Source of the DNA: Desulfotomaculum nigrificans DSM 574
GTDB lineage: Bacteria; Bacillota; Desulfotomaculia; Desulfotomaculales; Desulfotomaculaceae
Length of the DNA: 64,000 bases
Direction: 5' to 3'
NCBI RefSeq assembly: GCF_000189755.2
Contig: NZ_KI912183.1
Location: 1,242,257-1,306,256, forward strand
Made by a program: the position numbers and the translations under genes. Positions 28,929 through 49,848 of this stretch are shown one piece after another. The notes beneath the pieces were generated by a model. It was not told the origin of the DNA and ran no database searches. It was given only the letters and a program-made list of their open reading frames with translations. Every line of letters starts with the position of its first letter. The first letter of the stretch is position 1.

Positions 28929-29115
28929 GGTATCTGCCGTTAACAATCTGTACTTAAATGCTTTAATTTCCTTTATTATTAATACTTGCAGGGTTTATTA
29001 TATCATAAACTTGTGATTTTTCAACATGGTTTTTTATGTTATGTTGTTGTTCTGTGATATTGTCACTATATAACTGTTCTGTGAAAATGTCACTATGGGA
29101 CAGGAGAAGATTATA

Positions 29116-30390
29116 TTGACAAAAGCAGAACTCAAAAAAGTTTTGGTTGTGGAAAAGCTGGTCGCTCGTCAGGTCAAGGTGGCGGAAGTCGCTACTTTGC
29201 TTGGATTATCTACCCGACAGGTCTTGCGCCTTAAAAAAATTTACCTGGAGAAAGGAGCTCAAGGCATCGCCCATCAAAACCGAGGACACAAGCCTGTACA
29301 TGCCATTCCAGATACCATCAAGGAGCATGTGGCTGAATTGTATCGATCCAAGTACTATGGCAGCAACAACTGTCACTTTGCGGAACTGCTTTAAGAGCAT
29401 GAATCCATCACACTTAGTGTTTCCTCCGTCCGCCGTATTTTGTTGGCGAAAGGTATCAAACAGTCCAAGCAACGACGGCGGGGGAAGGTTCACCAACCGC
29501 GCAGCCGAAAACCGCAAGCCGGAATGCTTTGGCAGATCGACGCCAGTTCCTTCGCCTGGCTGGAGGATCGGGGACCTGAGCTCATGCTGCATGGAGCAAT
29601 TGATGACGCAACCGGCATGGTCGTCGGTGCTGTCTTTCGTCCCACTGAGACGCAGGAAGGCTATTTCACCGTCATGAAACAAGCCATCCAGCAATACGGC
29701 ATTCCGCTCGGGCTGTACAGCGACCGTCACACTATCTTTCGTTCCCCTAAGGAAACGTTGACACTGGAGCAGGAATTGGCGGGAGAGACCAAGCCGCTGT
29801 CGAATTTCGGCAAAGCGATGGCCGATCTGGAAATTACGCACATCAAAGCCCTGTCGCCGCAAGCCAAAGGACGCATTGAACGGCTGTGGCAAACCTTCCA
29901 GGATCGCTTGGTTATTGAATTGCGGCTGCTTGGGGTGAGCACACTGGAAGAAGCCAATCGCGTGCTGCCTAAGCTAATTCAAAAGCACAATCGCAAGTTT
30001 GCTGTCAAACCTCAAGAGGCGGAATCGGCGTACCGCGAGTTACCCGGGGGAATCAATTTGGATCATGTTTTCACCGTCCGGGAATACCGTCAGATCGGCT
30101 CGGGACAGACGATTTCTTATGGCGGCAAGATCTATACCTTCGCCGAAAAACTGCCCCGTCCCTTCGAGCTCAAAACTGTCGTTGAAGTACGGAAAACAAT
30201 GCAAGGTGAACTGTTAGTATGGCATCAAGGACACGCGCTGCGATTGTATGAAACGGAAAAACCCAAACGACAGCAAGAAATAAAAACAGCGAGTCCTGCG
30301 TTGCCACGCAAACCCGCTGCAAATCATCCATGGCGTCGACCATGGAACTCACCAAGCAGGTTTAGCGTAGCACAAATGCATAACCGTTGA
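29116..30390 (+). pseudogene. ISNCY-family transposase broken by an in-frame TAA
   Basis: The first part (TKAELKKVLVVEKLVARQV, with the HTH TLLGLSTRQVLRLKKIYLEKG) and the second part (MLWQIDASSFAWLEDRG, YSDRHTIF, SPQAKGRIERLWQTFQDRL) lie in one reading frame, separated by a TAA at 29392-29394 and no frameshift. The DDE core is intact after the stop. The start is a TTG at 29116, with CAGGAGAAG upstream. Without suppression the product stops after about 92 residues, so the element is probably dead. About 425 codons in all. Confidence 0.75.
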
Positions 30391-30590: not shown

Positions 30591-32354
30591 TCAATTTTCA
30601 ATCTGTAGGATCAGATTACTTGATTTACCAACCATATCGAGCATTTCACCCTCCGAGTCAGCGTTATAAAATATGTACAACAGTGAAACGGCTCTGGACA
30701 TGGCGGTATAATTTATCAATCTCGCTTTGTCACTTGCGAATTCATCCACGTCAAGCAGAATAACCACCGGCGCTTCCAAGCCCTTAAAACTGTGAACGGT
30801 ACAGAATTTCACACAATTATCCACTATATAATGCGGGTTTAAATCGGTTATATTCATGAACCCGCATATGCTTTCAAAAATATTGTTTCCTTGCAGGCAT
30901 GAATTTTCAAATCTGTGTTTTGAAAGCAAATATATACTGCCCGGTTTAACTCCTTGCCCGATCAATCTTTTAACTGTTTTGACCAATTGAATCCTTTCAT
31001 CGTTAAAATCCTTATAAGGCATCCGAACAACATTTTCCCCGTTCACCCTGAAATATTTCGCAGGTATCGTTCCCGTTAAAAGAGTGGTGTTAAGGCCTAT
31101 CGGTCTTGTGTTTCTGCAATTTGTATCGAGCGTAAGCAAAGTGGGACTATACTCGTTTATCAATTCCAGTCCCCCTTCCAATTCCGGGTTGTATATGTTC
31201 TGATTTGCATCGTAACAAATATGCCAATTCCCTTTTTTAAGCCCGCCCTTGATCATAATATCCAAACACATGATATATTCAAGCCTGAGCAAATCCTGAC
31301 CTTCGTCCAGAACCAAAGTATCATAACGGTTTTGATACCGTTCTTCATCACTCAATTTCAGAAACAATTCAGGCAGAGTCTTTGTCCAATAGATTTCTTC
31401 CTCACAATTCGGCAGAGGCGGCTGATAATCATACTTTCTCAACTCTTTGGAAATATAGCCGTGAAACGTAAATATATCCACCGAATCCTGTATCTCAGGA
31501 TCAGAGCGTTTAAAGTTTGAACGGAGATATTTGCATAAATTATTGTTATAGCATAAAAACAAAACTTTTTTCCCTGCATGAGCGCATCTTCTGGCGTGTT
31601 CAAGACTTAGTAACGTTTTTCCGGTTCCCGCACCGCCTTTCATTAAAATGCGGGGATTTTCCGATGCCATTGCCAAGCGCTGCGTTTGTTCTTTTGTCAA
31701 CTCAATCAATTTTTCTTCGGTTTTCTCCAATATATAGCCCAGTGACGGCACAAACCCGAAATCGCCCCGCAAATAGCTTTCCGCTTTACCGATTTGGGCC
31801 GGGGTCAGTTTTCCGCCTTTAAAGCCTTGCTTTTCCTCCAAGGCGGTCCTCCAGTAATTAAACACCTTTTTGATATAGGCCTCCACACCGGCATCGTTGT
31901 TTCTGGTGTCGAAAACGACTTCCGGTATAATGTCGGGGCCCTTTTGAGTAAAAGGCATGTCCGGAAATGCGACACCGCAGGCAAACTGGCAACAAGTCAC
32001 CGGATCGGCGGGGCCGAAGTGTTTTTTGATATGGTCACGCAGTGACAACATATTGGAAAACACTTGGCGGAACGGTCCTTCGCTTTTTTTTGTCTCTTTC
32101 CCGTATCTGTCGGTAAAATACCAATAACCGTCCTGTCGGCACACATGTCCGCCTTTAACTTCAAGACAAAGAATGCCCTGACTGCATATGATAACGAAAT
32201 CTATTTCACCGAAAACCTTTTCCCGGTGCTCCGCAATACCGAGAGAATGTAATATGACATAATCGTCACTGAGTTTGCTCAGAGAATGAAAAAGCTTTTT
32301 TTCTCCGTCACTTGTTCTTTGCCCGTCATAAAAAGGGGGGATCATTTTACTCAA
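30591..32354 (-). CDS. NERD nuclease-domain / UvrD-like helicase fusion
   Basis: A 587-aa fusion closing the defence operon. The N-terminal NERD domain (nuclease-related, PD-(D/E)xK fold) shows GEIDFVII (Asp52) and LEVKGG (Glu65, Lys67), the catalytic pattern. Walker A is GGAGTGKT (240-247), the Walker-B-like motif is LVLDEGQDLL, and TVHSFKGLEAPVVILLDVD is helicase motif V, so the rest is a UvrD/SF1 helicase. The TTG start overlaps the drmB stop as TTGA, so the two are coupled. In class 2 DISARM a PLD nuclease (DrmC) takes this place; here a NERD-helicase may supply nuclease action. Confidence 0.82.
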   Translation of the reverse strand: MSKMIPPFYDGQRTSDGEKKLFHSLSKLSDDYVILHSLGIAEHREKVFGEIDFVIICSQGILCLEVKGGHVCRQDGYWYFTDRYGKETKKSEGPFRQVFSNMLSLRDHIKKHFGPADPVTCCQFACGVAFPDMPFTQKGPDIIPEVVFDTRNNDAGVEAYIKKVFNYWRTALEEKQGFKGGKLTPAQIGKAESYLRGDFGFVPSLGYILEKTEEKLIELTKEQTQRLAMASENPRILMKGGAGTGKTLLSLEHARRCAHAGKKVLFLCYNNNLCKYLRSNFKRSDPEIQDSVDIFTFHGYISKELRKYDYQPPLPNCEEEIYWTKTLPELFLKLSDEERYQNRYDTLVLDEGQDLLRLEYIMCLDIMIKGGLKKGNWHICYDANQNIYNPELEGGLELINEYSPTLLTLDTNCRNTRPIGLNTTLLTGTIPAKYFRVNGENVVRMPYKDFNDERIQLVKTVKRLIGQGVKPGSIYLLSKHRFENSCLQGNNIFESICGFMNITDLNPHYIVDNCVKFCTVHSFKGLEAPVVILLDVDEFASDKARLINYTAMSRAVSLLYIFYNADSEGEMLDMVGKSSNLILQIEN

Positions 32355-34141
32355 CGCCGTTCACTCTCCCCGGCAGTCAGCAACGGCCCGAAATAACCGA
32401 GCACTGTGTTGTCAAACGTTCCGATCACTGCCGCCCGGTCAAGATAGCAGTTGCGTATTTCGCAACTTGTTTCGGGCAATAACGCACAGGAATGACACGC
32501 GGCCAGATTAGTCGCGTCGGTGCCCTGCCCCTTGGAATTGATACAAAGCGGGTCACTTGAACACCAACTTGCCGCTTCCAACATTTGCCTGATCGTATTG
32601 TCAAGTCTGTCCGTCATTCCTTCCCTTACCAACCCGCCGAGACTGCCTTCCGAATCGTTTGCGGACGTATATATTAATATCCCCGCCATTTCTTTGAATT
32701 TTTCACTGTCGGTAAAACTGCAATATATTCTTTCTTTTATCGAAGCACTGGCATAACCGCATTGCAACGTAAGCTGCCTTATCAACAAATGGGCCAAGGT
32801 ATGCAGCAGTATATAACGCGGGGTAATGCTCCGCCGCTTACCCATGCCCAATACTTTCCTTTCGGTGATGTGCTTATATCGGTCAATTATCTCCTCTTCG
32901 TTTTCCCATCGGGTAAGCCTTTCTTCATTCAACTTAATAAAAATTCCTTCCCCTTTAAGTTCAACACCGGGCAGCCAGTTTTTGAAATCCCTGCTTAACT
33001 TTACAAATGTGTCTTTGTCTTCCATGTCATAATCCGATCTGATACGTGTAAAACCTTGCAGGGCCATTACCTCTCTGAGTCGCAGGGCCAAAACCACTTT
33101 ATCGACATACCCGGCCGCTATCGGCGGCACTTCAACGGTTTTTGTTTTAAATTCACCTTCCTCATCGGTTGAGCCGGCAAGGAAAGCTCCGTATTCATCC
33201 TCCAAAATATCCTGCCAAGTTTTCGGATCGCAATTATCATCGTTTTCTTGTTTCCGCAACGCATGCTCCCAAATCTCATCTGCGGTGCAACCCAGTTTTT
33301 CCGGCCACTTCCATCCCGATACCAGTGTTGTAAAAATCTCCTTGTTATCAAGGAACGGTTTCAGATTTCTCCAGTTTTCGTTAATTTTTATCATAATGTT
33401 TTTGCTCCAAGGCGGGATGGACAAAGCACTTACCGTTACGCCGAAATGCAGGTTGGTTGCACCCCGTTGCATGGTGCGCATGGTTTGATCACACTCGCCG
33501 GGGTCGATGTCTTTCAGCCATGGTCTTCTGCGCGTACATTTAAAACCTTTCAATGCTTCGACACCGAAACTACCCATCATTGTTCGCTCGCTGCCGCAAC
33601 TTTTGCAAATTATCTTGATACCGTCCAGGCCGGATTTTTGATCACTCATTTCGATGCTAAGTTCAGGTTGGTTTTTCTTTTTGCACCTTCCGCCGTAATG
33701 CACCCACCATTCATAGGGAAAGTCATCCAAATGCCCGTTTTCACAGGCAACCACAAAACGTGACGGCACCAACGGGACCTTACACTTTTCACAACGGGGG
33801 TATCCCGTGAAACCGAATTTTTTGGCCGAGGCCAGTCTTTTGCACTTGGAGCATAACATCCATGTAGGAAAAAGGAATGCAGGGACACCCATATCTGTGG
33901 GATTACCGTACTCGTCCTTTGCCCCCGGAGGGGTAACGAAATAATCCACCTGCAATAATTTTTGCAAACTGTTTTCATTAATTCTGTATTTCTCGTAATC
34001 CTTCCAATAATCGGTACCTGCAATGATGACGGATTCTTTCGGAAGATCGACAATTGCACCGACACCGAACGTGGTAATCAATTGACTTCTCCGTAAAACC
34101 CCTGCTTTTTCTGTTTTTTTCTTTTTACCGCCCAACAGCAT
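32351..34141 (-). CDS. drmB: DrmB-like DUF1998 protein
   Basis: A 596-aa protein starting RRSQLITTFGVGAIVDLPKESVIIAG, the DrmB-type opening, with Zn-binding CSKCKRLA and RCEKCKVP, ENGHLDDFPYEWW, and a C-terminal DUF1998 domain (FTDSEKFKEMAGILIYTSANDSEGSLGGLV, then Cys-rich CHSCALLPETSCEIRNCYLD). DrmB partners DrmA in DISARM, where the pair binds DNA and blocks phage DNA. GGAGGGATGACGG precedes the ATG. It begins 3 bases after the drmA stop. Confidence 0.85.
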   Translation of the reverse strand: MLLGGKKKKTEKAGVLRRSQLITTFGVGAIVDLPKESVIIAGTDYWKDYEKYRINENSLQKLLQVDYFVTPPGAKDEYGNPTDMGVPAFLFPTWMLCSKCKRLASAKKFGFTGYPRCEKCKVPLVPSRFVVACENGHLDDFPYEWWVHYGGRCKKKNQPELSIEMSDQKSGLDGIKIICKSCGSERTMMGSFGVEALKGFKCTRRRPWLKDIDPGECDQTMRTMQRGATNLHFGVTVSALSIPPWSKNIMIKINENWRNLKPFLDNKEIFTTLVSGWKWPEKLGCTADEIWEHALRKQENDDNCDPKTWQDILEDEYGAFLAGSTDEEGEFKTKTVEVPPIAAGYVDKVVLALRLREVMALQGFTRIRSDYDMEDKDTFVKLSRDFKNWLPGVELKGEGIFIKLNEERLTRWENEEEIIDRYKHITERKVLGMGKRRSITPRYILLHTLAHLLIRQLTLQCGYASASIKERIYCSFTDSEKFKEMAGILIYTSANDSEGSLGGLVREGMTDRLDNTIRQMLEAASWCSSDPLCINSKGQGTDATNLAACHSCALLPETSCEIRNCYLDRAAVIGTFDNTVLGYFGPLLTAGESERR

Positions 34142-34144
34142 CCG

Positions 34145-37100
34145 TCATCCCTCCAAAAGTATCTCTGTTTCAACATCCACATTGCGCATTGAGTTCAATG
34201 TGGGCAGAGACTCGCTTTCCTCCCCGAAATTATCGGTCAACAGCGGTGTCGCACCGTTTCGGTAATACCGTTGATAAGGCAGCACACCGCCGTCCGCCAG
34301 ATATTGCCAATGCTCCAGGATGCTCAACAGATGTTTTTCGGTGCCTTCATATTCGGACTCGTCAATCACTTTTACCTTCTCAAGTATTTTCGCAATCTGT
34401 TCGTGTACTTCCGCAGTGTAATCCGATATGTTTGCGGCATCACTGTTGTTTGCCAATCCGTCCACAAGATGCCTGCACAAGCTTATCAGAACTGCATGCA
34501 GCGCCCTGTCCCTGGCCCGCTCGGCAAACGGTGTCAGGCTGGTTGCCTCAACATACTTGTACAAAGAGGAATGATAGGCCAAAAATTGCTCGTAATGTGA
34601 TCGGTCCCTGCTCCTGGTCACATCATACATGCAAAGAACCAACCCCGGTGTTTTCCGCCCGACGCGGCTGGTGGCCTGGATGTACTCCGAGTTGGACTTC
34701 GGTTGCCCCTGAAGAACCATCAATCCCAGTCGGCCGATATCTATCCCTACCGAAAGCATGTTGGAAGCCAAAACAATATCAAAGGCATTCGGGTCGGGAT
34801 AACTTACCTCCAACTTTTTTAACGTTTCGCCGATTTCGGAATTTTTCTTGCGGCTGGTTAGTTCACCCGGTATTTGCAGGTCAGGCACTTTCATGTCGGC
34901 CGGGAGAAAACTTTTGAACTTGTTCCCGAACAGGTATCTGTATCTGTGCTTAACGTCGTCAATAACGTTAACGACGGCACTGCCCAATTGTTTAAGACTG
35001 TTAAAATAACCTGTCAATGTCCAAAAAGAATCAACAACTTCTTTGTCGTAGCCCTTGGCACTCAAATAACGGACGGCAAAAAGCATTGCCGCATAAACTC
35101 TGATCATGCGCGTATGGCCGCTGGTGCCAGGCGTAAATATTCCTCTGTACTTTCGGGATGGTTTTTTGTCCGAAGATGATTCCACCGCAAAATATGAATT
35201 TCTGATGTCGGTACCCTGCGGCGGAAATTGATGTAATTTTCTGCCGTATAGGTTAAGCACTTGGTTGCCCGCATTTCTGATGGTTGCGGTTGAAGCAATG
35301 ATTTTGGGCTTGATATTGTTTCGCCGGCAAAATTCGTCTATCGCTATCTCATAAAGTCCGGCAATCGTCCCGAGCGGCCCGGAAATCAAATGCAGTTCGT
35401 CCTGTATAATCAGCTCCGGCGGCAATAATTCGGTTTTCAGACCGAATAAATTGCCCACTTTTGGTTCCCATGTCATGCGGGCAAATTTATCAATCGTTGC
35501 AACCACCAAAGCAGGTTTGTGGTTATACAAGTCTTCGTCAACGAGATAAACCGGTAATCCGTGACGAAAGTCACAGTCCACGTCGGAACATCTGATCACC
35601 ATTTTGCTGTCGGTTACCTCATAATTGACGGGGCGTATTTTGCTGCCGCACCAGGAACACGTAAGGATCTGACAGGGGTTTGAATCTTCTTCGGTAAGAG
35701 CATCAAAACCATGTTTCTTTATCGTTTCCAGTGATTTTTCCGCATCTTTCAATTTATTGGGGGTCAGCGGCCCGACAAACAATCCGGCGGCAATCTCCTC
35801 CGTCCCCAGTATTTCTTGGTTTTCTTTTCGTATCAGTTCGCATGCGCATATCAACGCCGTCGCTCTCTCAAACTGTTGCAGCGTCAGCAAGCGGAGAGTA
35901 TATCTCATGATGACGGTTACCCCGCCGCCGAGGCGGTTTTCTTTAACCGCTTTCATTCTGCGTAAAAATATTGTGAAAGCGGTTAAACCCAGGTAGGCTT
36001 CGGTTTTACCGCCGCCGGTCGGGAACCACAACAAATCAACCAAGTCACGGTCGGTGTTTGCAGGATCGGCAACCGAACACAGTTCCTGTAAAATAAATGC
36101 CAACTGGAAGGGATACCAGCCGTACCGTTCTTTGCCGGTTACGCCGTGTTGTTTGATTCTCATCCTTAACATAGCTTGATTGACTAATTGAAAAGCAATA
36201 AAAACAAGCCTGTCGTCAGACAACAGTTTAATACCGGCTCTCATCCGGCGCAAAGTTTTCCGGCAATTTTTTACATTTTCTGCGGCTACTCCTTTATATT
36301 CGTCGGGCAGCTTTTTGATCCCGTTTTCGATGTCCGCAATCCAACTTTCGTATTGATTTGCGGTTTCTGCCAATGCGTCGGTGATTTTTTCGACCGTTTG
36401 GTTGCCCAAAAATTCAAAACTCAATGTCTCCCGCGAAACGATCATGGCCGGCTCCATTTGCATCAACTCATACTCACTGATAAATTCCGACCACACACAG
36501 GATGCATAATCTCCGGCCTGTTTCCAACCAACACTGCAACCGTGCCCCACGGCAAAATTTTTGTTATGCCTGTACAACATCTCGAGGTTTAACATTTCCG
36601 GGTCGCGGTTTATCTTTACCCGCATCTTTTTCTCAGTGAATACTTTTTCTTCACCGTTTACACCTTTTACAATTATTTTGGGTTGAAAAAAAGTCATGGC
36701 TTCATCGGAAATCAAATCTTTGCTTTTATTACTGTTTAACAACGACACGGTAACAGTTTTTGTTCCGTCCGGAAACTCTGTTTGCAGGTAAACGCAAAGT
36801 TCCAAGCCATCATGCAATTTTTCGCACCGGTATTTCTCGCAGGTTGATATTTCGGTTGCAACCTTTTTGTATTGTCGGTGCCATTCGTATTCCGTCCATT
36901 TCCTTAGAGACGTTTTTTCCTTCTCAACAGGAACGTACCAGGCAAATTCCGTCTCCACAAGCAGTTTTTCAATACCGGCAGCAACAGTAAAAGAAATCGC
37001 CATAGAAGAAGGATAGTATTCGTAACATAAATTAAGAGGTTGGTCCGCTTCTTCGGTGTCGCCTTCCAGTTGGTTTTTTTCCAGTTCCGTTTGCAAAATT

Positions 37101-37249
37101 TGCTTACCTTGGGGAAAAAGTCTTCCGGTTATATAATAATCGCTCGGTCTGGTATCAATGATTTCATCTTCCGTTACCGGGCCCAACAAGTCTTTAATCA
37201 AAAAATCTTCCAAAACCGCTCTGGCTTCGTAGTATTTTTGATAATCCAA
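34145..37249 (-). CDS. drmA: DrmA-like superfamily 2 helicase
   Basis: A 1034-aa helicase. From the TTG start Walker A PTGGGKTE is near residues 410-417 and DELH (DEAH-type, IIQDELHLISG) near 617-620. CSWCG and CSDVDC (about 530-560) form a zinc insertion, and ATSRVGRKTPGLVL with MYDVTRSRDRSHYEQF is helicase motif VI. These match the YprA/DrmA helicases of DISARM. ACGGAGGG precedes a TTG at 37249, 13 bases after the UvrD-gene stop; the longer frame to 37348 overlaps that gene and lacks support. It likely translocates on foreign DNA with DrmB. Confidence 0.88.
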   Translation of the reverse strand: MDYQKYYEARAVLEDFLIKDLLGPVTEDEIIDTRPSDYYITGRLFPQGKQILQTELEKNQLEGDTEEADQPLNLCYEYYPSSMAISFTVAAGIEKLLVETEFAWYVPVEKEKTSLRKWTEYEWHRQYKKVATEISTCEKYRCEKLHDGLELCVYLQTEFPDGTKTVTVSLLNSNKSKDLISDEAMTFFQPKIIVKGVNGEEKVFTEKKMRVKINRDPEMLNLEMLYRHNKNFAVGHGCSVGWKQAGDYASCVWSEFISEYELMQMEPAMIVSRETLSFEFLGNQTVEKITDALAETANQYESWIADIENGIKKLPDEYKGVAAENVKNCRKTLRRMRAGIKLLSDDRLVFIAFQLVNQAMLRMRIKQHGVTGKERYGWYPFQLAFILQELCSVADPANTDRDLVDLLWFPTGGGKTEAYLGLTAFTIFLRRMKAVKENRLGGGVTVIMRYTLRLLTLQQFERATALICACELIRKENQEILGTEEIAAGLFVGPLTPNKLKDAEKSLETIKKHGFDALTEEDSNPCQILTCSWCGSKIRPVNYEVTDSKMVIRCSDVDCDFRHGLPVYLVDEDLYNHKPALVVATIDKFARMTWEPKVGNLFGLKTELLPPELIIQDELHLISGPLGTIAGLYEIAIDEFCRRNNIKPKIIASTATIRNAGNQVLNLYGRKLHQFPPQGTDIRNSYFAVESSSDKKPSRKYRGIFTPGTSGHTRMIRVYAAMLFAVRYLSAKGYDKEVVDSFWTLTGYFNSLKQLGSAVVNVIDDVKHRYRYLFGNKFKSFLPADMKVPDLQIPGELTSRKKNSEIGETLKKLEVSYPDPNAFDIVLASNMLSVGIDIGRLGLMVLQGQPKSNSEYIQATSRVGRKTPGLVLCMYDVTRSRDRSHYEQFLAYHSSLYKYVEATSLTPFAERARDRALHAVLISLCRHLVDGLANNSDAANISDYTAEVHEQIAKILEKVKVIDESEYEGTEKHLLSILEHWQYLADGGVLPYQRYYRNGATPLLTDNFGEESESLPTLNSMRNVDVETEILLEG

Positions 37250-37262
37250 TTTCAACCCTCCG

Positions 37263-39647
37263 TTAATCCGTATTCCAACGCAACAATCCCATCCCCGAAA
37301 CACTGACGGCGTACCATACACCCGTGTCGATCCACGGTTCGCCGACACCTTCGCGTACCGTCTCCGGTTTTTTTACAACGGAATATATTTTGTCAACGTA
37401 TATATCGTCAAAACTGCGGGGCATATATTCTGTATTTTGGCCGTAAACGGCTTTTACCACATTTTTAACGTCATAATAAAAGAACGATGACATTTTCCCG
37501 ATAATATTGCCGTCATGCAAAATTATATATGCGCCGTCATTCATCTTAACTTCCAGTCGGTCACCGGGTTTGATTTTTTCTCTTATATATCGCTGGTTTT
37601 CCGCAGGGTCAGCAAGAAAAGAACCGTCAACAAAAGCAAATTCGTCAACGTCATTTTCCATACCCACCTCGACGGCCACAAGTTTGGTATTTCCGTTGCG
37701 TCTTTTGAAAGTCTCCGCCCAACGTTTGCTGTTACTGTAACTTGAATAGAGTCTGTTTTTATTGCTGTGTTCTATGGTGTACAATTTTTTCTTCGCCCGG
37801 GTGACGGCAACATAATAAACTTTAGCTTCTTCAAATATATCTTTCGTTATGTTTCCGTCGGGTTTAAGCACCAAAACATTGTCATATTCCCGGCCTTTGG
37901 ATCTGTGTACGGTACTTACGCAAACCCTGCTTTTATAACCTTCATAAACATCATCCGGCAGACGTGCACCGGCAGCCAAAGCTTTTCTCAAGTCTTTTGA
38001 TCTCAATGCACCGATATTGCCGGTAACCAATGATTGCAAACTTAAATAAATGTACTTTGTGCTCTCGGTCGGCCAATATCGATCGTTATCATTGATGCGC
38101 TCCAAAAGTTCTTCGGTGATCAAGGCGCTATCGTCGCTCAACAATTCCGCCACCCATACCGGCAGCAGCGACGAATTGTTTCTCCTTCGCACAGTGTGTT
38201 CAACGTCATGCATGCGCAAATATCCTGACAACTTAAGCACTTCACCGTTATTGCGGCAAAGAATGCCCGTTGTTTCCGTACCTTCGGCCGGTATGACAAA
38301 TTCCCACTCTCTTCCGCATGACGGGAGATTTTTGACTGAATCCAAAAACCTCATGACGTTGTCCGGGTTGCCCGATTCCAAAAGTTTTCTGCAGCGGGAA
38401 GTATAATCGGACAAATCACCTGACTGACGCATATTGTCACGCAGTTGAACCACGGTCATACTGTCCGCATATTCTTCATTTAACCGTTTCAGCAAGCCTT
38501 TTGCATCCAAATCTCCGGGCTCCGCCTGATAATCATATATCCCCTGCAAAGGGTCGCCCAGTAAAGTAAAACCGCATGAAGATTTTCTGTTGCGTAACAT
38601 CGTTTGCACCAGACGCGCCCTTACCCCCACCAAATCCTGAATTTCGTCAACTATAAAATGGCCCATGTTTTCGAGTATGGCGGGTTCGCTGTTTATTTCC
38701 TCCACAGCATCCTCAATGCGTTGATCATAATCTTTACCCGTTACATCCACACCGATGTGAAGAAGCACATGTGTGGCAAACGAATCAAAAGTTCTGATTT
38801 CGATCCGCAACAAATCGTCGGTATAATCACCGGTTTCAATATCCCTTTGCAAACGCTCTCTGATTTCTTTTACCGCCGCCCGGGTAAAGCAAAGAAGCAA
38901 AATGTTCTCTGCTTCCAAAGAATCGTCTTCTTCCACAAGGTACTTCAGCTTTTCAATCACACTGTAAGTTTTGCCGGTTCCCGGGCCGGCCAAAACCAAC
39001 ATCTCGGCTTCGGGAGAAGAGCGAATGATGCTGTCTTGTCCCTTATACTCCGGAATTGCTTCGGAATCCCCGGCATCTAAGCCAAAACCCGGCAAATGTC
39101 CGACATCGGGCTCGGGTTCAAAAGTCACCGTCGTGATACTGCCTGTCAAATCATCTGAAACCGGCCGTGCTTTCTTTTCAGTTCGGTCTGTCGGTATTTC
39201 AGATATCTGTTTATACGGTTCATCCCGCTTGGGTTTCACCGGTTCCGCAGGTGTCCAAGTATCCGCCCTTACGACAGGCAACTCATCATTGGCCGGGTTG
39301 AAGCCCGGTCTGCATATCTTAAAATTTTTACATTCGGTGTGATAGCACCTGCATTCAACATCGATCCTGTTTTCACGTCTCACCGGGCCGAAAAAAATAT
39401 CTTTTTTGTCTTTTTGAAAATAACAAGGCATACCTTGTTCATATTCTTTTCGCTGTACATCGGTAAGTTTGTCAAGGTAAGGTTCCAAACTTACTTCGCC
39501 TTGTATAAAATTTAAGCCCGCAATCGTTCTTAACATTAAGCGAATGTTGTCTCTGCCTCTCACTTGGGCCTGAAAGTCTTTGTCCCTGTAAAAATCCCCC
39601 TTTAATACGTATACATTACTGAGAGGCATTACATTGGATTTAATCAC
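37263..39647 (-). CDS. UvrD-family (SF1) helicase with N-terminal four-cysteine region
   Basis: A 794-aa protein from a GTG at 39647, with GGAGGTGG upstream. Walker A GPGTGKT (about 221-227), DEIQDL motif II, VSTVHRSKGREYDNVLVLKPDG and YVAVTRAKKKLYTIEH place it in UvrD/Rep helicases. The N-terminal ~210 residues are novel: Cys at about 99, 101, 106 and 112 (ECRCYHTECKNFKIC) could hold a metal or an iron-sulfur cluster. The C-terminal 90 residues are beta-rich. Its start overlaps the Hsp70 stop by 8 bases, so it is coupled. A role in DNA unwinding for defence is inferred from the operon. Confidence 0.82.
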   Translation of the reverse strand: MIKSNVMPLSNVYVLKGDFYRDKDFQAQVRGRDNIRLMLRTIAGLNFIQGEVSLEPYLDKLTDVQRKEYEQGMPCYFQKDKKDIFFGPVRRENRIDVECRCYHTECKNFKICRPGFNPANDELPVVRADTWTPAEPVKPKRDEPYKQISEIPTDRTEKKARPVSDDLTGSITTVTFEPEPDVGHLPGFGLDAGDSEAIPEYKGQDSIIRSSPEAEMLVLAGPGTGKTYSVIEKLKYLVEEDDSLEAENILLLCFTRAAVKEIRERLQRDIETGDYTDDLLRIEIRTFDSFATHVLLHIGVDVTGKDYDQRIEDAVEEINSEPAILENMGHFIVDEIQDLVGVRARLVQTMLRNRKSSCGFTLLGDPLQGIYDYQAEPGDLDAKGLLKRLNEEYADSMTVVQLRDNMRQSGDLSDYTSRCRKLLESGNPDNVMRFLDSVKNLPSCGREWEFVIPAEGTETTGILCRNNGEVLKLSGYLRMHDVEHTVRRRNNSSLLPVWVAELLSDDSALITEELLERINDNDRYWPTESTKYIYLSLQSLVTGNIGALRSKDLRKALAAGARLPDDVYEGYKSRVCVSTVHRSKGREYDNVLVLKPDGNITKDIFEEAKVYYVAVTRAKKKLYTIEHSNKNRLYSSYSNSKRWAETFKRRNGNTKLVAVEVGMENDVDEFAFVDGSFLADPAENQRYIREKIKPGDRLEVKMNDGAYIILHDGNIIGKMSSFFYYDVKNVVKAVYGQNTEYMPRSFDDIYVDKIYSVVKKPETVREGVGEPWIDTGVWYAVSVSGMGLLRWNTD

Positions 39648-41076
39648 CTTTGCCACCTCCGAACCCTGTCGGCAATTGATAGTACAATTTCGGGCCGGGG
39701 TATTGCCATTCTTCGGTGTATCTCTCCGAACGTCTGTTGCTTTTGGCACTGACCCTGAATACCAGGTTTCTGTCTATTCTGGCCTTCAAATTTATTTGTT
39801 CTTTAAAAAATCCGAACGCGGGCACATGAAGGTAACCCAAAACATTGCAACCGTTACTGAATACAAAATTAGCCGTTCCGCTGTCCTCGACCATGGCAAA
39901 AGTAAATTCAATCGGTTCATAATCAACCGGCTCACCCTCCTTCATCAGAGGATAAAAACTGTCATCGGCCATGACCACACCTATCGTTTCGGCAAGCTTA
40001 TAATTGCCGGGGTTTACGCTTAGTTTTGCGGCACCGGTTGCCACGCTCCAATCAGAGTCTTGAGGGAAAATTTTATCACATTTCCATTTTTCCTCGACAC
40101 GGTCAATAAGCGGAGCCAGATTGACGCTGCCACCCACCATCAAAATGCAACCGAGTTCGTCCATACTGACACCTGCCTTTTTCAACGTGTCTTCAAAACA
40201 TTTTATTGCCGATTCAACGTCTTCTTCTATAAGTCTTGAAAAGGTGTCAGCATCCAATGTAACGCGGAAAGGGCCCAAGTCCCCGTATCTGTTAAGAACA
40301 ACTTCAACCATGTCTCTTACCGAAAGGTCTCTTTTTGCCCTTTCGCAACGCGCTATCATCATATCTCGGGCAGAAGACGGCATCTCATCAAAAGAAACGG
40401 TTGCCTTCTTTTGTTTTATTACTTGATTATGCACCCAGTGGGCAATTTTCAGATCGATGTCGTCTCCGCCCAAATAAAGACCGCCCGCAGCCGCCTCTTT
40501 AATCAAGCCGCCGCTGTTTTCCAGCACGGCAACATCCAACGTGCCGCCGCCCCAATCAAATACAGCGATTTTGTTATAAAAACCTACTTCGTCGTAATGT
40601 CTGAAAAAAGCGGCGGTGGGTTCACTGACAAAGCTCTTGATTTCTATGCCGGCAAGCCGTGCGGCCCGCCTCAATTCCGCTCTTTTTACCGGCGGAAAGC
40701 CGACAGGAACGGCCACCACCGCTTCAGACATTTCCTCTTTTACCCCGGCAGCGGCAATTTGTCTTTTCAAACCTTTAAAAACTTCCGCGGCAATCATCTC
40801 GGTTGTCCAATTTTTCCCCGCAATCGTCCACGTTTTGCCGGTACCCAAAAGGGTTTTCACCGAAGATATAACCTCACAATTTTCGCTGTACTCCTGTCTT
40901 TTTAACCACGCTTCCCGGCCGCATTCCACTTTGCCGGTAACCGGATCGATAACAACAAGTGAAGGGAAAGGACTGCCGTCGTATTGATCTTCAAACTTCA
41001 TCACGCTTTTACCGTCAATTATCCCGGTACATGCACTGTTTGTTGTGCCGAAATCTATACCGAAGTCAAACTTCAA
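39640..41076 (-). CDS. Short Hsp70/DnaK-like ATPase in the defence operon
   Basis: A 478-aa actin-fold ATPase. FGIDFGTTNSACTG (4-18) is phosphate-1, AVFDWGGGTLDV (about 171-182) phosphate-2, and LGCILMVGGSVNLAPLI the adenosine motif. After about residue 380 there is only a short beta-rich substrate-like domain and no long helical lid, against about 610-640 aa in DnaK. It is thus a lidless Hsp70-type protein. The TTG start overlaps the upstream stop as TTGA, with GGGAGGG upstream. Adjacent to a coiled-coil protein that could be its partner. Neighbours place it in phage defence; its client is unknown. Confidence 0.83.
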   Translation of the reverse strand: MKFDFGIDFGTTNSACTGIIDGKSVMKFEDQYDGSPFPSLVVIDPVTGKVECGREAWLKRQEYSENCEVISSVKTLLGTGKTWTIAGKNWTTEMIAAEVFKGLKRQIAAAGVKEEMSEAVVAVPVGFPPVKRAELRRAARLAGIEIKSFVSEPTAAFFRHYDEVGFYNKIAVFDWGGGTLDVAVLENSGGLIKEAAAGGLYLGGDDIDLKIAHWVHNQVIKQKKATVSFDEMPSSARDMMIARCERAKRDLSVRDMVEVVLNRYGDLGPFRVTLDADTFSRLIEEDVESAIKCFEDTLKKAGVSMDELGCILMVGGSVNLAPLIDRVEEKWKCDKIFPQDSDWSVATGAAKLSVNPGNYKLAETIGVVMADDSFYPLMKEGEPVDYEPIEFTFAMVEDSGTANFVFSNGCNVLGYLHVPAFGFFKEQINLKARIDRNLVFRVSAKSNRRSERYTEEWQYPGPKLYYQLPTGFGGGKGD

Positions 41077-42473
41077 CGGTCAATCCCTCCCTTGAATTCA
41101 ATACCTTCTTCAGACAATATGTTAAAAACGTTACTGAGTTGAATTCTCAGGTTTTCACCCAATTCCACCGTCATTTGCTCGTTTTCCGCCAGCTTGAAAT
41201 CCAAATAGTCTGTTCTCAGTTTTCGCTGCAGTCTGTTTTTTAATTGTTCCAACTGCTGTTTCGGTCTAAGCTCCAACATATCAAACAGCTGGTTTTTATC
41301 ATTTTCAAATTTTAATTTTTCATCATAAAGTTGCTTTTCCAGGCCGGTTATAATACTTCTTGCCTGTACCGTTTCAGCTTTGAGTTTTTCGTTTTCCTCC
41401 TTTAATTTTGTAACAACCGTTACTGTTTCCGCCAATTTTCTTTCAGTAGCCAGACGTATGTCTCTTTCTTTCTCCGCTTTGGCAAGTGCGTCACAGATTT
41501 TGTTAAGATTTTGTTTGTTGGTTTTCTCCAATTCATCGATGTAGTTGCGCAATTGTTCCAAACTTTGTATCGGGTCAAAGTCGCGGTTTTTTAAAGTCTC
41601 GGTTTTGTCATTTTCTTTTCTTTCATTCGGTGTATTGTCGGAACTTTTTTTCTTCGAAATATTCGGTGCGTCGGTCAGCTCCGGTTTATATGGTTGTTTT
41701 GAAGTAAATACGCTTGACACAGCATTTTCTTCAGGCCGGACAGATTCTTTTGCGGGGTGCAGATACGTCACCACGCTGACCAAACCCATCTCATGACAAC
41801 GACGTTGCAACTCAACCGGCCATTTTGCCGCACTTTTTTCCAATCCCTCTCGGATTTTGCCGGATATTACAAAAAGCTTTTCCAATTTGTTTAACCAGTC
41901 AACAAACGCCTGAATAATCCCGACATCATTGTTTTCCCCGTCAGTCTTTGATGCAAGGGCATACATAATCAGCACAGCGATGCAAGACTTTCCGCGAGCG
42001 GTTAAGTGTTGTCCGTCGGGTGATATTTTAAGCAAAACACCGTTTTCCATCAGTGCATTCTTAACCTTCAGTACATATTTATTGGCCGGCGTATCGGTAC
42101 ATGATTTGGTCAGTTTTTCACTTAAAAATGCAAACAGACGAACGGCAACATCTCCGGATACTTCGGCAAATCCCTTTATCAGTTCGATAAGCCTATTATA
42201 TGCAGCTTCCCCGTCAAAATCTTTCTGTTCGATTAATTCGTTGATTAAGACTTCCCGGTACGTCAAATCACTTTCCAGCCAAACTTTTAAAAATGCGCTT
42301 GCCGCAATGTCCTGAGGCAACGACAACATAAAACCGTAACCCGCTGTTCTGTATGAGTTGTTCTGCAAAAAATCTTCCAAATACTTTTCGGCTTCAAACT
42401 TATCCTGGTTGTTAAGCTTCTTTTTTTGCTTATATTTTGCGGCCAGTTCTTCCAATCGGCTTGCATCCGACAT
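41073..42473 (-). CDS. Coiled-coil protein, possible Hsp70 partner
   Basis: A 466-aa protein. Residues about 1-250 are helical and unrecognised. From about 300 to 420 the sequence is strong heptad-like coiled coil (SLEQLRNYIDELEKTNKQNL; KLKEENEKLKAETVQARSII), then a conserved-looking tail (QLKNRLQRKLRTDYLDFKL; VELGENLRIQLSNVFNILSE). The long coil with a C-terminal globular tail recalls GrpE-type exchange factors, an analogy only. GGGGAGG precedes the ATG; the previous gene stops one base earlier, so the genes are coupled. Its stop overlaps the Hsp70 start. Confidence 0.65.
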   Translation of the reverse strand: MSDASRLEELAAKYKQKKKLNNQDKFEAEKYLEDFLQNNSYRTAGYGFMLSLPQDIAASAFLKVWLESDLTYREVLINELIEQKDFDGEAAYNRLIELIKGFAEVSGDVAVRLFAFLSEKLTKSCTDTPANKYVLKVKNALMENGVLLKISPDGQHLTARGKSCIAVLIMYALASKTDGENNDVGIIQAFVDWLNKLEKLFVISGKIREGLEKSAAKWPVELQRRCHEMGLVSVVTYLHPAKESVRPEENAVSSVFTSKQPYKPELTDAPNISKKKSSDNTPNERKENDKTETLKNRDFDPIQSLEQLRNYIDELEKTNKQNLNKICDALAKAEKERDIRLATERKLAETVTVVTKLKEENEKLKAETVQARSIITGLEKQLYDEKLKFENDKNQLFDMLELRPKQQLEQLKNRLQRKLRTDYLDFKLAENEQMTVELGENLRIQLSNVFNILSEEGIEFKGGIDR

Positions 42474-42474
42474 T

Positions 42475-45400
42475 TCAGTTACCTCCCCGGTAAGTTTTTA
42501 GTTTGTCAAACAATCTGTTTTTCTCCGGTGATTCGGGAATTTGATCTTTTAAGTTCATTAATTTGTCAATCAAAGAGTTTCTGTCCGTCCCTGACTTCAG
42601 CTTTTCAACGGCAATAACTGTCAATAACCAGTCATCGGACCGCTTACAGCATTGAATTGCTTCCGCCGAATTTTGGTCAAAATTCGCACATTGTTTAATT
42701 AAAATCTTATCTTCGGAACGTAAAGGCAAAATTTCCGACATGTCGTTTAAAAGTTCGTTCGAGTCAACAATACTTCCGTCAGAAATATTAAGTGCTTTCA
42801 TTAAAGTTTTATAAACTAACCGTATCCCTTTATGCCTGGGGGTTATCTTCCCGAAAAGTTCCTTGGCGGCGCTTATCCGCAACATTCTGAGCAGCACAAG
42901 CGAGTGCAACAAACATTTCAAGTCATTGACAAAACCTGCCGGTTCATTTATATTGTTAATGATTTCTGTTGCTTTTTCATTTTCTCCGGCCAAATAATGC
43001 TTCCACGCCCTGGTTACCAATTTTCCTCCTTTTTGTCCGGCTATTACGCTTTTCGGCGGACCTTTTCCGTTAACGTCACCGGCCCATTCAATAAACATGT
43101 CCTTTGAGTAATCCTCAGAGTCTGTTCCGGTTAAACTGTCGGTAATCTTAATCCATCTCTCCACAGCGGGAAGCATGCCTGTGTCGACATCATCAACGAA
43201 TTCGGTATCTTCGCCGCGACGGCAATTAAAAATGTATTCAAGCAATTTTTTCTTTTTACTGTCTATAATAAGAGTTTTCCAATCCAAAACCGAATTTTTT
43301 ATTGTTATAACGGTATCGTCGAACACGCAGGCGCAAGCTAAAATTGTGTAAAACCACTCGTCAATTTCTTTGCAGAAACCGGGCAAAAGGTTTATCGGTA
43401 TATGACTTTGCGGTTTATTCACAATCTTTGTGCAAAGCTGTAAAACAATTTTCAGGTTTTTTCCCCACTCTGTTTCAATTGTGCATGGTTTTCCTTGGTA
43501 AACCGACTTTTTAATTTCTTCAAGGTTTATAAACACAGCACCCGTACTTACCTTCCTGCCTTGGCAATACAGATAAAGTTCGCTTATCTCACTGTTAAAA
43601 TCAGCCGTCAGTTGTAAGTCATCACAGCTGATCTCGCCGAAACCCTCCTGGTTAAAAGTTACCGTCCGGACATAATTCTCGTTAACAAACAACTTTGCTT
43701 CGGCACCGGGGTAACCGGTTAACAACAACTTCTCATGCTCTTTCAATTCTGACAGGGATATGTACCTGATTCTTTCTCCGGAAACATGAAACAGCCCCGC
43801 TCTGTAAACAGGTACCCTGATACCGACGGACACGTTACCGCAGACAATGCTGCCGTATGCTGTGCTCTCTTTGGGCGGCACCGCCCATTTAACGCCTTTT
43901 CCGCTTATATCTTTGCAATTTTTAAACCGCAATTGACAAGAAGAATTTTTATCCGCAGTAATTAAAGCTTCTTCACCGAACCCGTAAATTTTCTCCTCAA
44001 CAGCAAGGTTAATTTCAGGTAACAAACAAAAGTACAATTCTTCCAAAACTGTTTTATTGATGCCGAATCCGCTGCGGGCTATGTTGCTCAGCCAGATACG
44101 GCCCTTAACGGGTGCGTGCCGCTTCACTTCTTTGCTGAAATCTTTTAAACCTTGCTTGGTCTTTATCCTTACGGTACCCTTTCCCAAATTATAAAAGAGT
44201 CCCACAATGTTTTTTTCAACCAGTCCGAAGTCGGATACTTGCAATTGCGGCAAAGAGCCTTCAAACGTATCAAAGTATTCGTCCGAAGCATACTTCAACA
44301 ACTTATCGGTCGGATGCTGCCACGCTAAAGAAATATTTTGCTCTCCGACACCGGTGTCTTCGATGCTGTAATTAACAATAACATCTTCTTTTTCAAACTT
44401 CACCAAATAGGCTTTATACTTCCATCGACCGGGTAAATTCACGTCCCCCGTCCTTTGTAAATTTGAGTATGTAACCTCGTATCCCGCGGGTGCAAGCAAA
44501 TAATAAAATCCCGGCGGAATCCGTGAATTTGCTTCAATGTAACCGCGCCTTATATCAAAAACCGCAGGCATTCCGTCCGGTTGCCATCCGTTGATTGTCC
44601 AATACAGTACCGTACCGTCTTCCCCCACTGCCTTTCCGGAATATTTCTCCGAAAGCAACTCCGCACGGGTCAACTTTGTCAAAGGATACTCCCAACCCGT
44701 TGCATTTTCGGGAAAGATAATGTTTTCACAAAATTGAGGATAAGGAAACTGCAATGCCAAACATTTGTCCCTGTCAAGATACACCAACCGCGGTTTTAAA
44801 GTTAAAACATTTTTTATTGAGTTATTTACCGCACCAAATTCAGAAATGAGTTCGTGCCAAAAACCCGGTTGAAAACCCGGCAACTCTTCCAATTCCGCTA
44901 AAGTCAGCTCCCCTTCTTCATATTGCCTCATAAGACGGGAAATTTGCATAAAAAATTGCCAACCTGCTTCGTCACATAAAAAACTTCTCAAAAACCCCGA
45001 ACAATAAGTATTTTCCATCCTTCGGCGGAATTCGTATAAACTCATTGAGGTGAGATAATCCCATCCGTGATGAACTTTAAAGTAGCGCATTATTTGTGCG
45101 GTGCTGGGTATATAACGTTTTGACACCCCGCTCTGCTCCAATATCGCGCCGACATAGCGAAACGGACCTTTTCTTTCGTTCTTCAATAATCCGTAATGCT
45201 TCAATGTTTGTTCTATAACGTTACCGACATATTCATGATCCTCAGCACTGTTACCGCATCTGACCAACGAGCAAAAATGTTTCCAAAAACCTGCATTATC
45301 GTAATAATGATAGGCACAATTAACCGCCAAAACCAACATTGCCGTTCCCATAACGTAATACCCTTTGGTTGACAGTACGTTTTGTTCGGCCGCAAATTCT

Positions 45401-45519
45401 GCGGCAAGAGCATTCAGTTCATCTGTGTTCAAATAAATCTCGCCTACATATTGGCATTCTTTTAACTTTTCCCGCCATTCGACGACATAATTATGAATTG
45501 ATTTGCCCAAAACCTTCAT
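42475..45519 (-). CDS. Large unrecognised protein opening the defence operon
   Basis: About 1014 aa if started at ATG 45519 (MKVLGKSIHNYVVEWREKLK). The open frame runs up to 45672, but those first residues look untranslated. The start is uncertain: GGGTGGG abuts this ATG and would suit a TTG at about 45510 better. No known motif, Walker box or membrane span is seen. The N-terminal 300 residues are helical with HYYDNAGFWKHFCSLV and FRRRMENTYCSGFLRSFLCDEAGWQFFM; the middle part is beta-rich, and the C-terminus is helical. First in the operon, it is a candidate specificity or sensor component. I do not recognise its family. Confidence 0.6.
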   Translation of the reverse strand: MKVLGKSIHNYVVEWREKLKECQYVGEIYLNTDELNALAAEFAAEQNVLSTKGYYVMGTAMLVLAVNCAYHYYDNAGFWKHFCSLVRCGNSAEDHEYVGNVIEQTLKHYGLLKNERKGPFRYVGAILEQSGVSKRYIPSTAQIMRYFKVHHGWDYLTSMSLYEFRRRMENTYCSGFLRSFLCDEAGWQFFMQISRLMRQYEEGELTLAELEELPGFQPGFWHELISEFGAVNNSIKNVLTLKPRLVYLDRDKCLALQFPYPQFCENIIFPENATGWEYPLTKLTRAELLSEKYSGKAVGEDGTVLYWTINGWQPDGMPAVFDIRRGYIEANSRIPPGFYYLLAPAGYEVTYSNLQRTGDVNLPGRWKYKAYLVKFEKEDVIVNYSIEDTGVGEQNISLAWQHPTDKLLKYASDEYFDTFEGSLPQLQVSDFGLVEKNIVGLFYNLGKGTVRIKTKQGLKDFSKEVKRHAPVKGRIWLSNIARSGFGINKTVLEELYFCLLPEINLAVEEKIYGFGEEALITADKNSSCQLRFKNCKDISGKGVKWAVPPKESTAYGSIVCGNVSVGIRVPVYRAGLFHVSGERIRYISLSELKEHEKLLLTGYPGAEAKLFVNENYVRTVTFNQEGFGEISCDDLQLTADFNSEISELYLYCQGRKVSTGAVFINLEEIKKSVYQGKPCTIETEWGKNLKIVLQLCTKIVNKPQSHIPINLLPGFCKEIDEWFYTILACACVFDDTVITIKNSVLDWKTLIIDSKKKKLLEYIFNCRRGEDTEFVDDVDTGMLPAVERWIKITDSLTGTDSEDYSKDMFIEWAGDVNGKGPPKSVIAGQKGGKLVTRAWKHYLAGENEKATEIINNINEPAGFVNDLKCLLHSLVLLRMLRISAAKELFGKITPRHKGIRLVYKTLMKALNISDGSIVDSNELLNDMSEILPLRSEDKILIKQCANFDQNSAEAIQCCKRSDDWLLTVIAVEKLKSGTDRNSLIDKLMNLKDQIPESPEKNRLFDKLKTYRGGN

Positions 45520-45773
45520 CCCACCCAAATCGTTTTTCCAAATCATGTTCGTGTCATAAGATTTAGAATAAAAACGATGCAATGAGTAAAATGTCAGATA
45601 TATAACTGAGTTCCACTTTTGTAATGGATTTCCTTTATTAAAAAAAATATAAAAATTCTTAAATTTTAACAACTTTGCGTTGATCGATACAGAATACTTA
45701 AGTTTTTTTCTTGAAAATTTTATTATTAGACAACCTGTTGATCAGAAGGTTTTAATTAACGAAATATAGAATA

Positions 45774-45799
45774 AACCTCCTTATGTTTCGTTGGAGGTT
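45774..45799 (+). promoter_or_regulatory. Hairpin that can hide the methyltransferase ribosome site
   Basis: AACCTCC (45774-45780) is exactly complementary to GGAGGTT (45793-45799), the ribosome site of the GTG start at 45807, with a 12-base loop. It may limit methyltransferase synthesis or be an operator. The divergent operon start lies about 250 bases away. Confidence 0.4.
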
Positions 45800-45806
45800 G
45801 AAATCA

Positions 45807-47036
45807 GTGGCAGTATGTAAATCAACTTTTGTTAAACCAAAAATAATCCATGACCGTAACAAAAATATTCAATATTATTTTCCCGGAGCACCAAGTGTAA
45901 ACACATGCACTGATTTACCCGTGATCAGCTTATTTACCGGTGGCGGCGGTCTGGACTTAGGCCTGGAGCAAGCCGGATTCACTACCGCCGCTTTTGTGGA
46001 AAATGACAAGTATTGTATAGAAACAATTAAAGCTAACAGGAATTGGCCCCTGGTGGGAAACGGAGATGTAACCGAAATAACTTCATATGACATTCTGAAA
46101 GAAGCAAATCTCAGCAAGGGTGATGTTGCCCTGCTGGCAGGCGGCGCACCGTGTCAACCGTTCAGTAATCTTGGTAAAAACGAAGGTGATAAAACACTGA
46201 ACGGACAACTGTATAAACATTTTATAAGATTGGTTAAAGAAATTCAGCCTGCCGCTTTTCTTTTTGAAAATGTAAAAGGAATGTTACAAAACCATAAAAA
46301 AGTGATTCAATTTATGAAAGAAGAATTCGGCAAAATAGGTTACGGAATAGCCGTATCGTTACTTTGTGCTGCTGATTACGGCGTTCCTCAAAAACGATAC
46401 AGGATATTTATCATCGGAAGGCGGGACGGTAAACTACCCGGATTTCCGTTCCCCACTCACGCCAATAATCCGGAATTGAGTTTAAAATACTTTAATACTC
46501 TTTGCAAATCGCAAGATGCGTTTTTCCCTTATACAGAATTAAAAAAATGGGTTACCGTAAAAGAAGCTTTTTCCAAATTAACCGATAAAGATTACAGCAA
46601 AGAATATAATTATTATGCCAATCTCTCGCCCCGTATAATTGAAATGATTAAACACATAAAACCCGGTACAAAAATGTGCTGGGCAGACCTACCTGAACAT
46701 TTGAAATTTGATTGTTGGAAAAAAGGAAATTTTCAGGGCAATGATAATTTCAGCCGTCTACAATATGATGAACCGGCGGTAACCATTCGAACCGGCGCTG
46801 TTTACCCGGCCAAAGGTAAATACATTCACCCGAAACTGGACAGAGGACTGAGTACGCTGGAAATGGCTGTTCTTCAATCCTTTCCGATAAGCGGTGATAA
46901 CGGTTGGATTTTTAAAGGCGGAATTACAAGTGTGGCACGACAAATCGGCAATGCCGTTCCGCCGCTGTTGGCCAAAGCAATCGGAGAGTCCCTGAAGCTT
47001 CAGATATCGGAAGTAATTAACGGAGAGCAGCGTTAA
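45807..47036 (+). CDS. DNA (cytosine-5) methyltransferase
   Basis: A 409-aa C5-methyltransferase. Motif I SLFTGGGGLDLGLEQAGF, motif IV GGAPCQPFSNLGKN with the catalytic Cys, motif VI FENVKGM, motif VIII QKRYRIFIIGRR and motif X GNAVPPLLAKAI are in order. Motif IX-like DEPAVTIRTG is present and the target region is short. GTG at 45807 has TTGGAGG upstream; the ATG at 45783 precedes the ribosome site. It is divergent from the DrmAB operon. In class 2 DISARM the same enzyme type (DrmMII) protects self DNA; here it also pairs with Vsr, as Dcm does. Confidence 0.9.
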   Translation: MAVCKSTFVKPKIIHDRNKNIQYYFPGAPSVNTCTDLPVISLFTGGGGLDLGLEQAGFTTAAFVENDKYCIETIKANRNWPLVGNGDVTEITSYDILKEANLSKGDVALLAGGAPCQPFSNLGKNEGDKTLNGQLYKHFIRLVKEIQPAAFLFENVKGMLQNHKKVIQFMKEEFGKIGYGIAVSLLCAADYGVPQKRYRIFIIGRRDGKLPGFPFPTHANNPELSLKYFNTLCKSQDAFFPYTELKKWVTVKEAFSKLTDKDYSKEYNYYANLSPRIIEMIKHIKPGTKMCWADLPEHLKFDCWKKGNFQGNDNFSRLQYDEPAVTIRTGAVYPAKGKYIHPKLDRGLSTLEMAVLQSFPISGDNGWIFKGGITSVARQIGNAVPPLLAKAIGESLKLQISEVINGEQR

Positions 47037-47440
47037 TCCTCTCCGTTGAGCGTTTCTTTTAAATCTTTTACCACCCGGTTCAGCTCCTTTTTTATTTCAC
47101 ATCCCCAGTAACGTTTAACCTTCCATCCCGCTTGTTCCAACCGTTGGGTCACCTTAATATCATTTAACTTATTTTTTTCAATTTTTGCCAGCCAAAAATC
47201 TCTGTTTTGTTCGGGTATTTGTCCACACTTCGGGCAACCGTGCCAGAAACACCCGTCACAAAAAACCGCAACTTTTTTACCCGGAAATACAATATCCGGC
47301 CGACCGGGCAAATTGTTTTTTATACGATATCTCAAACCTTCATTCCACAGTGCCTTACGTAACCTTATTTCCAAATCCGTGTTTTTATTTTTAACGGCAG
47401 CCATATTTCTGCTTCTTTCTTCCTTACTTTTATTGTCCAT
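47033..47440 (-). CDS. vsr: Very short patch repair endonuclease (Vsr)
   Basis: A 135-aa Vsr-type nuclease with RSRNMAAVKNKNTDLEIRLRKALWNEGLRYR, PGRPDIVFPGKKVAVFCDGCFWHGCP and FWLAKIEKNK. It nicks T:G mismatches that arise when 5-methylcytosine deaminates. GGGAGAGACG precedes ATG 47440; the longer frame to 47488 has no support. Its stop overlaps the methyltransferase stop by 4 bases, tail to tail, so the two are genetically linked but on opposite strands. Confidence 0.9.
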   Translation of the reverse strand: MDNKSKEERSRNMAAVKNKNTDLEIRLRKALWNEGLRYRIKNNLPGRPDIVFPGKKVAVFCDGCFWHGCPKCGQIPEQNRDFWLAKIEKNKLNDIKVTQRLEQAGWKVKRYWGCEIKKELNRVVKDLKETLNGED

Positions 47441-47562
47441 CACCGTCTCTCCCATTCTGAAGTTATCTTCGTATAATTTTACTTCCAAACCAAATGTTGT
47501 CTAGCCGGATGAAGAAAATTTTAAACTAAGCAATTTTAAAATTTAACCGCTTTTTTTATGTA

Positions 47563-48877
<1,315 letters not shown>

Positions 48878-49821: not shown

Positions 49822-49848
49822 ATCCTCTCCGGACTAACCTGAGAGGAT
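49822..49848 (+). terminator. Terminator at the end of the recombinase gene
   Basis: ATCCTCTC pairs with GAGAGGAT, followed by eight T. Confidence 0.75.

Follow-up and report, generated by a model that had tools for sequence, protein, structure and literature searches.

A mobile DISARM locus with a lidless Hsp70 and associated genes in Desulfotomaculum nigrificans DSM 574

Among described systems, the closest to the locus reported here is DISARM (defense island system associated with restriction–modification), for which the mechanism of DrmAB, including its autoinhibition, has been described, and in which DrmC is reported to be non-essential and often missing (PMC9142583). The locus lies within a 64,000-nt segment of the Desulfotomaculum nigrificans DSM 574 genome (contig NZ_KI912183.1, positions 1,242,257 to 1,306,256; hereafter the window), where seven abutting minus-strand genes occupy 45,519 to 30,591, with a C5-cytosine DNA methyltransferase gene divergent from gene 1 and a Vsr mismatch endonuclease gene convergent on that of the methyltransferase. 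It shares with class 1 and class 2 DISARM the DrmA and DrmB proteins, a linked DNA methyltransferase and a defense-island setting, but is without DrmC, a recognizable DrmE or DrmD, and has an Hsp70 module (genes 2–4), a large gene 1 product with a predicted immunoglobulin-like (Ig-like) middle, and a NERD nuclease-helicase. We think that it is probably a mobile variant of DISARM whose added module is of chaperone type and serves in sensing or licensing, and infer that the cluster acts in phage defense.

Several other systems resemble the locus in part. Coiled-coil nuclease tandems (CoCoNuTs) of type III also include in a defense operon an Hsp70, CnuD, along with HEAT-like and coiled-coil elements, but they are McrBC-based, the ATPase motifs of their Hsp70 are degenerate, and their proposed target is RNA (PMC11090510); a profile search of the operon found neither an McrB-like GTPase nor an McrC homologue. 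CnuD is nonetheless a precedent for an Hsp70-like protein in defense, and the requirement of bNACHT25 for DnaJ is one for a chaperone needed in phage sensing (PMC12169576). ARMADA is DISARM-related and has a YprA-family helicase, joined in type II by a UvrD-type helicase, whereas no Hsp70 appears in the main text of its description, and neither its BrxHII-like helicase nor its PglX-like methyltransferase has a match in the cluster (PMC12458937). We rejected ARMADA, BRIGADE and TALON as identities for the locus because their defining partners are absent here and the published account is without an Hsp70. Druantia III (DruE–DruH) similarly pairs a YprA-family helicase with a large protein having helical and Ig-like parts, but no DruE match is listed in the window, where the helicase is DrmA, and gene 1 has no significant sequence match to DruH. 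In the open-access literature searched, we found no description of an Hsp70 in DISARM, although the combination may have been cataloged elsewhere.

All genes of the cluster are open reading frames and stand in the order given by the initial annotation, which had described seven minus-strand genes with overlapping or near-touching ends. With starts re-placed according to ribosome-binding sites and relatives, neighbors do overlap by 4–8 nt or lie 1–13 nt apart, and the long overlaps of the open reading frame caller vanish (gene 1 starts at ATG 45519, gene 4 at GTG 39647 and DrmA at TTG 37249). The domain calls made at that stage (Hsp70, UvrD, NERD with UvrD_C_2, DrmA, DrmB, C5 methyltransferase and Vsr) are likewise matched by profiles.

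Assignment to DISARM follows from genes 5 and 6, because both pass curated cut-offs, and these two identities, chosen beforehand as a point on which the initial annotation could fail, survive. DrmA (gene 5; 34145–37249, minus strand; 1034 aa) scores 985 bits against NF038325 (cut-off 950) and 522 bits against the solved DrmA (PDB 7s9v), and has intact PTGGGKT, QDELH and QATSRVGR motifs. DrmB (gene 6; 32351–34141, minus strand; 596 aa), a DUF1998/MZB protein, scores 539 bits against NF038324 (cut-off 240), and its zinc-site cysteines (527-533-549-552) have a 6-16-3 spacing equal to that of the published DrmB site (PMC9142583). The adjacent, divergent C5 methyltransferase (45783–47036, plus strand; PF00145, 225 bits) has the PCQ and ENV motifs; among PADLOC models a type II methyltransferase fits it best and DrmMII less well (197 bits), and the methyltransferases of relatives are DrmMII-like, one of them (L044) next to drmB. 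By profile search, no DrmC or other phospholipase D (PLD) protein is matched by any of the nine proteins (PADLOC and Pfam level), no DrmE model matches genes 1–7, and neither the class 1 DrmD SNF2 helicase nor the DrmMI adenine methyltransferase is found among the cluster proteins, so that the absence of DrmC and of a recognizable DrmE noted earlier holds at the level of models. Judged by its sequences, the locus is therefore DISARM by its core and C5 methyltransferase, but the lack of a visible DrmC and of any DrmE model match sets it apart from the standard operons of classes 1 and 2.

The departure from DISARM that most concerns us is the set formed by genes 2–4. Gene 3 (39640–41076, minus strand; 478 aa) encodes an Hsp70 (PF00012, 138 bits) with a nucleotide-binding domain and a beta substrate-binding domain; its sequence stops after the latter, and there is no alpha-helical lid. 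Alignment with the genome's own DnaK shows the phosphate, Lys70, Glu171 and Asp194 sites to be kept. A profile of the system Hsp70 gives 770–912 bits in close members versus at most 150 for housekeeping DnaK. Gene 2 (41073–42473, minus strand; 466 aa) encodes a protein with a helical-repeat N-terminal domain, a linker and a coiled coil at residues 301–429; relatives are 23–29% identical, the AlphaFold2 (AF2) model has a predicted local distance difference test (pLDDT) score of 77, helical-repeat matches are weak, and structure searches gave no specific fold. Gene 4 (37263–39647, minus strand; 794 aa; Pfam UvrD) has a Cys4 N-terminal domain, a UvrD superfamily 1 motor with intact GPGTGKT, DEIQD and VAVTRA motifs, and a C-terminal domain.

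A new finding here is that the coiled-coil protein, the lidless Hsp70 and gene 4 go together as a single unit. Profiles of the Hsp70 and of the Cys4 domain of gene 4 match exactly the same six of 398 genomes; since the genomes from which the profiles were built are part of this count, it describes linkage inside the known set and is no independent rate. In one of these (G272) the genes downstream of genes 2–4 encode a PLD protein, a UvrD helicase and phosphorothioation proteins that resemble BrxP, SspB, SspC and SspA/DndA, and DrmA is absent from that contig; another (G219) has a short contig on which only genes 2–4 are seen. Walker A, Walker B and motif VI have disappeared from gene 4 in these two genomes, and both of its end domains are kept (six-genome alignment), which suggests that the module needs the ends of gene 4 and not its motor. 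We tentatively propose that genes 2–4 may be a transferable chaperone-type module, plugging into methylation-linked DISARM and into phosphorothioation as a common nucleotide-driven switch that licenses restriction.

No gene 4 match was found in phage records. Four plasmids with Hsp70-like matches were examined and rejected as carriers of the module: two have ordinary DnaK, one is unannotated, and in the Paenarthrobacter plasmid the neighbors do not match the module. The Paenarthrobacter gene (L073, 7859–12103) lies between two hypothetical genes in a defense-like region, near a GIY-YIG nuclease, a helicase and a DNA methyltransferase, and is not the same module by profile. An IMG/VR contig (L097, 5822–9920) has a 644-aa Hsp70 after two uncharacterized genes (382 and 340 aa). 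The phosphorothioation region of G272 (contig C48, L042, 4878–18562) also encodes a protein of 1019 aa with cysteines clustered near its C terminus, whose pairing with UvrD looks AddAB-like.

The wider arrangement also recurs. Failure of the seven genes to occur together elsewhere had been set beforehand as a second ground for refuting the initial annotation, and the neighborhoods bear the annotation out: the complete seven-gene order is present in one further genome (L013/L016), and two more genomes have the same order as far as the contig end (L004 and L012/L017). Another (L018/L044) has genes 1–6 followed, 3 bp after drmB, by a C5 methyltransferase gene in place of the NERD gene, and an IMG/VR contig that also has a primase (L096) has genes 2–7. 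Widely separated families share this order, so the arrangement is more than chance. In phylogenetic trees the Hsp70-linked DrmA proteins form one clade (support 100/100), as do the DrmB proteins (100/99), with the DISARM of a congener elsewhere. Two of these loci have further neighbors: an AbiEi/AbiEii toxin-antitoxin pair directly upstream of the Hsp70-DISARM genes in L096 (5025–6556), at the place of gene 1, and, downstream of the methyltransferase in L044 (3057–5732), an HhH-GPD/nicking-endonuclease-like protein together with a strong Cas8b match.

Comparison with ordinary DISARM loci indicates which genes are peculiar to this one. DrmA is encoded in 14 of 100 relatives, and the Hsp70 module is present only in the genome of the window. 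NERD-helicases are frequent neighbors of DrmA and DrmB in relatives' DISARM loci; those of related Bacillota (L061, L067, L068 and L070) are like the window locus in having a NERD-helicase by DrmA and DrmB, a C5 methyltransferase and, in some, Vsr, but have no Hsp70, coiled-coil or Ig-like gene, and their DrmA proteins fall in other clades. One of them (L067) encodes a protein above the Pfam DrmE_C cut-off. In the window the NERD-helicase (gene 7; 30591–32354, minus strand; 587 aa; Pfam NERD and UvrD_C_2; PADLOC RTasNERD-Hel, 161 bits) has intact GEID...EVK and GAGTGKT motifs, and Vsr (47033–47488, minus strand; TIGR00632, 137 bits, cut-off 98) has the motif DGCFWHGC. We assign the methyltransferase and Vsr to DISARM because orthologues of both adjoin the congener's ordinary DISARM (L061) and because a C5 methyltransferase follows drmB in L044. 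The NERD-helicase, methyltransferase and Vsr are thus DISARM-typical, and the novelty lies in genes 1–4. The initial annotation had placed two extra helicases outside the classic set; this stands for the UvrD gene, which belongs to the Hsp70 module, but not for the NERD-helicase, an ordinary DISARM partner in relatives.

An integrative element carries the system as its main cargo and hardly anything else, as seen from its repeats, its integrase and the uninterrupted site in congeners. A perfect 51-bp direct repeat of the tRNA-Pro 3′ end (left copy 28878–28928; right copy, the 3′ end of the tRNA gene itself, 49931–49981) bounds an element of 21,053 bp (28,878–49,981), and a tyrosine integrase gene (48812–49837, plus strand; PF00589, 108 bits) adjoins the right copy. 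When the two flanks are joined into one query, the match is unbroken in three congeners (G007, G003 and G004). What had been called a tRNA-bounded island is thus given defined ends. The element also carries a passenger IS30-type transposase (47720–48766, minus strand; Pfam HTH_38 and rve) and a degraded transposase; transposase genes and a degraded rve transposase lie at its left end, inside and outside the repeat (25686–27601 and 29095–30390).

Gene 1 (42475–45519, minus strand; 1014 aa; ATG start by alignment) has a helical N-terminal domain, a predicted beta-rich Ig-like middle and a helical C-terminal part, with helical ends and a beta-rich middle in the AF2 model. Relatives are 34–37% identical, and no match was found in viral contigs or plasmids. 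The N-terminal domain has homologues in proteins whose genes immediately precede those of Druantia-type YprA helicases (hmmsearch E 3e-9; hhalign E 6e-12), and beyond it there is weaker collinear similarity to these partners, which are not matched by DruH models. Three such proteins of 930–1166 aa precede Druantia-type YprA helicases (L005, 7173–10670; L014, 8730–11612; L015, 9039–11828), possibly as an undescribed Druantia-like type.

If the locus does act as a chaperone-controlled DISARM, the DrmA/DrmB/C5 methyltransferase core would, by analogy, protect self DNA by methylation and act on unmarked incoming DNA, and the places of a recognizable DrmE and DrmC would be taken by the Hsp70 module, the large Ig-like protein and the NERD nuclease-helicase. 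Gene 1, a possible sensor, would recognize an infection cue. The absence of a lid makes it likelier that the Hsp70 works as a reversible clamp or switch than as a chaperone for folding in general; the protein may bind a segment of a partner, its ATP/ADP state and the coiled-coil co-factor leading to release or assembly of the helicase complex. Gene 4 could be a Cys4 adaptor that here also bears a UvrD motor. DrmAB and UvrD would load on unmarked phage DNA having exposed single strands, and the NERD domain would then cut it.

Several observations weigh against this reading. The gene 1 model is modest (mean pLDDT 68.5; predicted TM score, pTM, 0.36), structure searches gave no specific fold, and the matches are to generic Ig-like or helical-repeat folds. 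DruH was rejected as an identity for gene 1, since hhalign was not significant (probability 0.2%) and an intermediate family links to DruH only marginally; with no significant sequence link and generic fold matches, the modeled resemblance to the published DruH layout (PMC13192584) is one of architecture only. Neither the IMG/VR member nor the phosphorothioate-linked locus has gene 1, which therefore cannot be essential to the module. The link to phosphorothioation comes from one genome.

The explanation that best competes with a sensing or licensing module is that the Hsp70 and its coiled-coil partner serve solely to help fold or assemble the very large DISARM helicase complex, as a chaperone dedicated to it, and have no part in sensing infection. 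The intact ATPase residues fit this, as do the large multi-domain helicases available as substrates in the operon and a helical-repeat and coiled-coil partner that could be an exchange factor. We nevertheless consider it unlikely, though deserving of attention, in that 13 of the 14 relatives' DISARM loci are without the module and presumably assemble anyway, the module also occurs by phosphorothioation genes on a contig with no DrmA, and the Hsp70 is without the lid of folding chaperones. Service to the mobile element itself, in excluding rival elements, plasmids or conjugation rather than phages, is suggested by the operon being almost the sole cargo and by the relative on a primase-bearing IMG/VR contig; given that DISARM is a studied phage-defense system we find this rather improbable as a replacement, and both may be true. 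It is quite improbable that, as proposed for CnuD, RNA or nascent chains are the ligands of the Hsp70, which would thereby aim the system at phage transcripts or translation: the union of Hsp70, HEAT-like repeats and coiled coils in type III CoCoNuTs (PMC11090510) does parallel genes 2 and 3, but the ATPase motifs are degenerate in CnuD and not in the window Hsp70, the operon has no RNase or McrBC parts, and the partners are DNA helicases, a DNA methyltransferase and a NERD nuclease. Islands do collect genes, but a chance landing of the Hsp70 and others by a DISARM operon is refuted by an order conserved across families and by the grouping of the linked DrmA proteins, and likewise of the linked DrmB proteins, in one clade each.

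The known controls on the triggering of DISARM and on its sparing of the host go no further than DNA shape and methylation. With its ATPase residues intact, the Hsp70 built into this locus offers a tractable handle on whether a chaperone cycle licenses a DNA-targeting defense. Should the module, unnamed in the current PADLOC, NCBIfam and Pfam model libraries, in fact move between systems based on methylation and on phosphorothioate, bacterial immunity would have in it a common control element.

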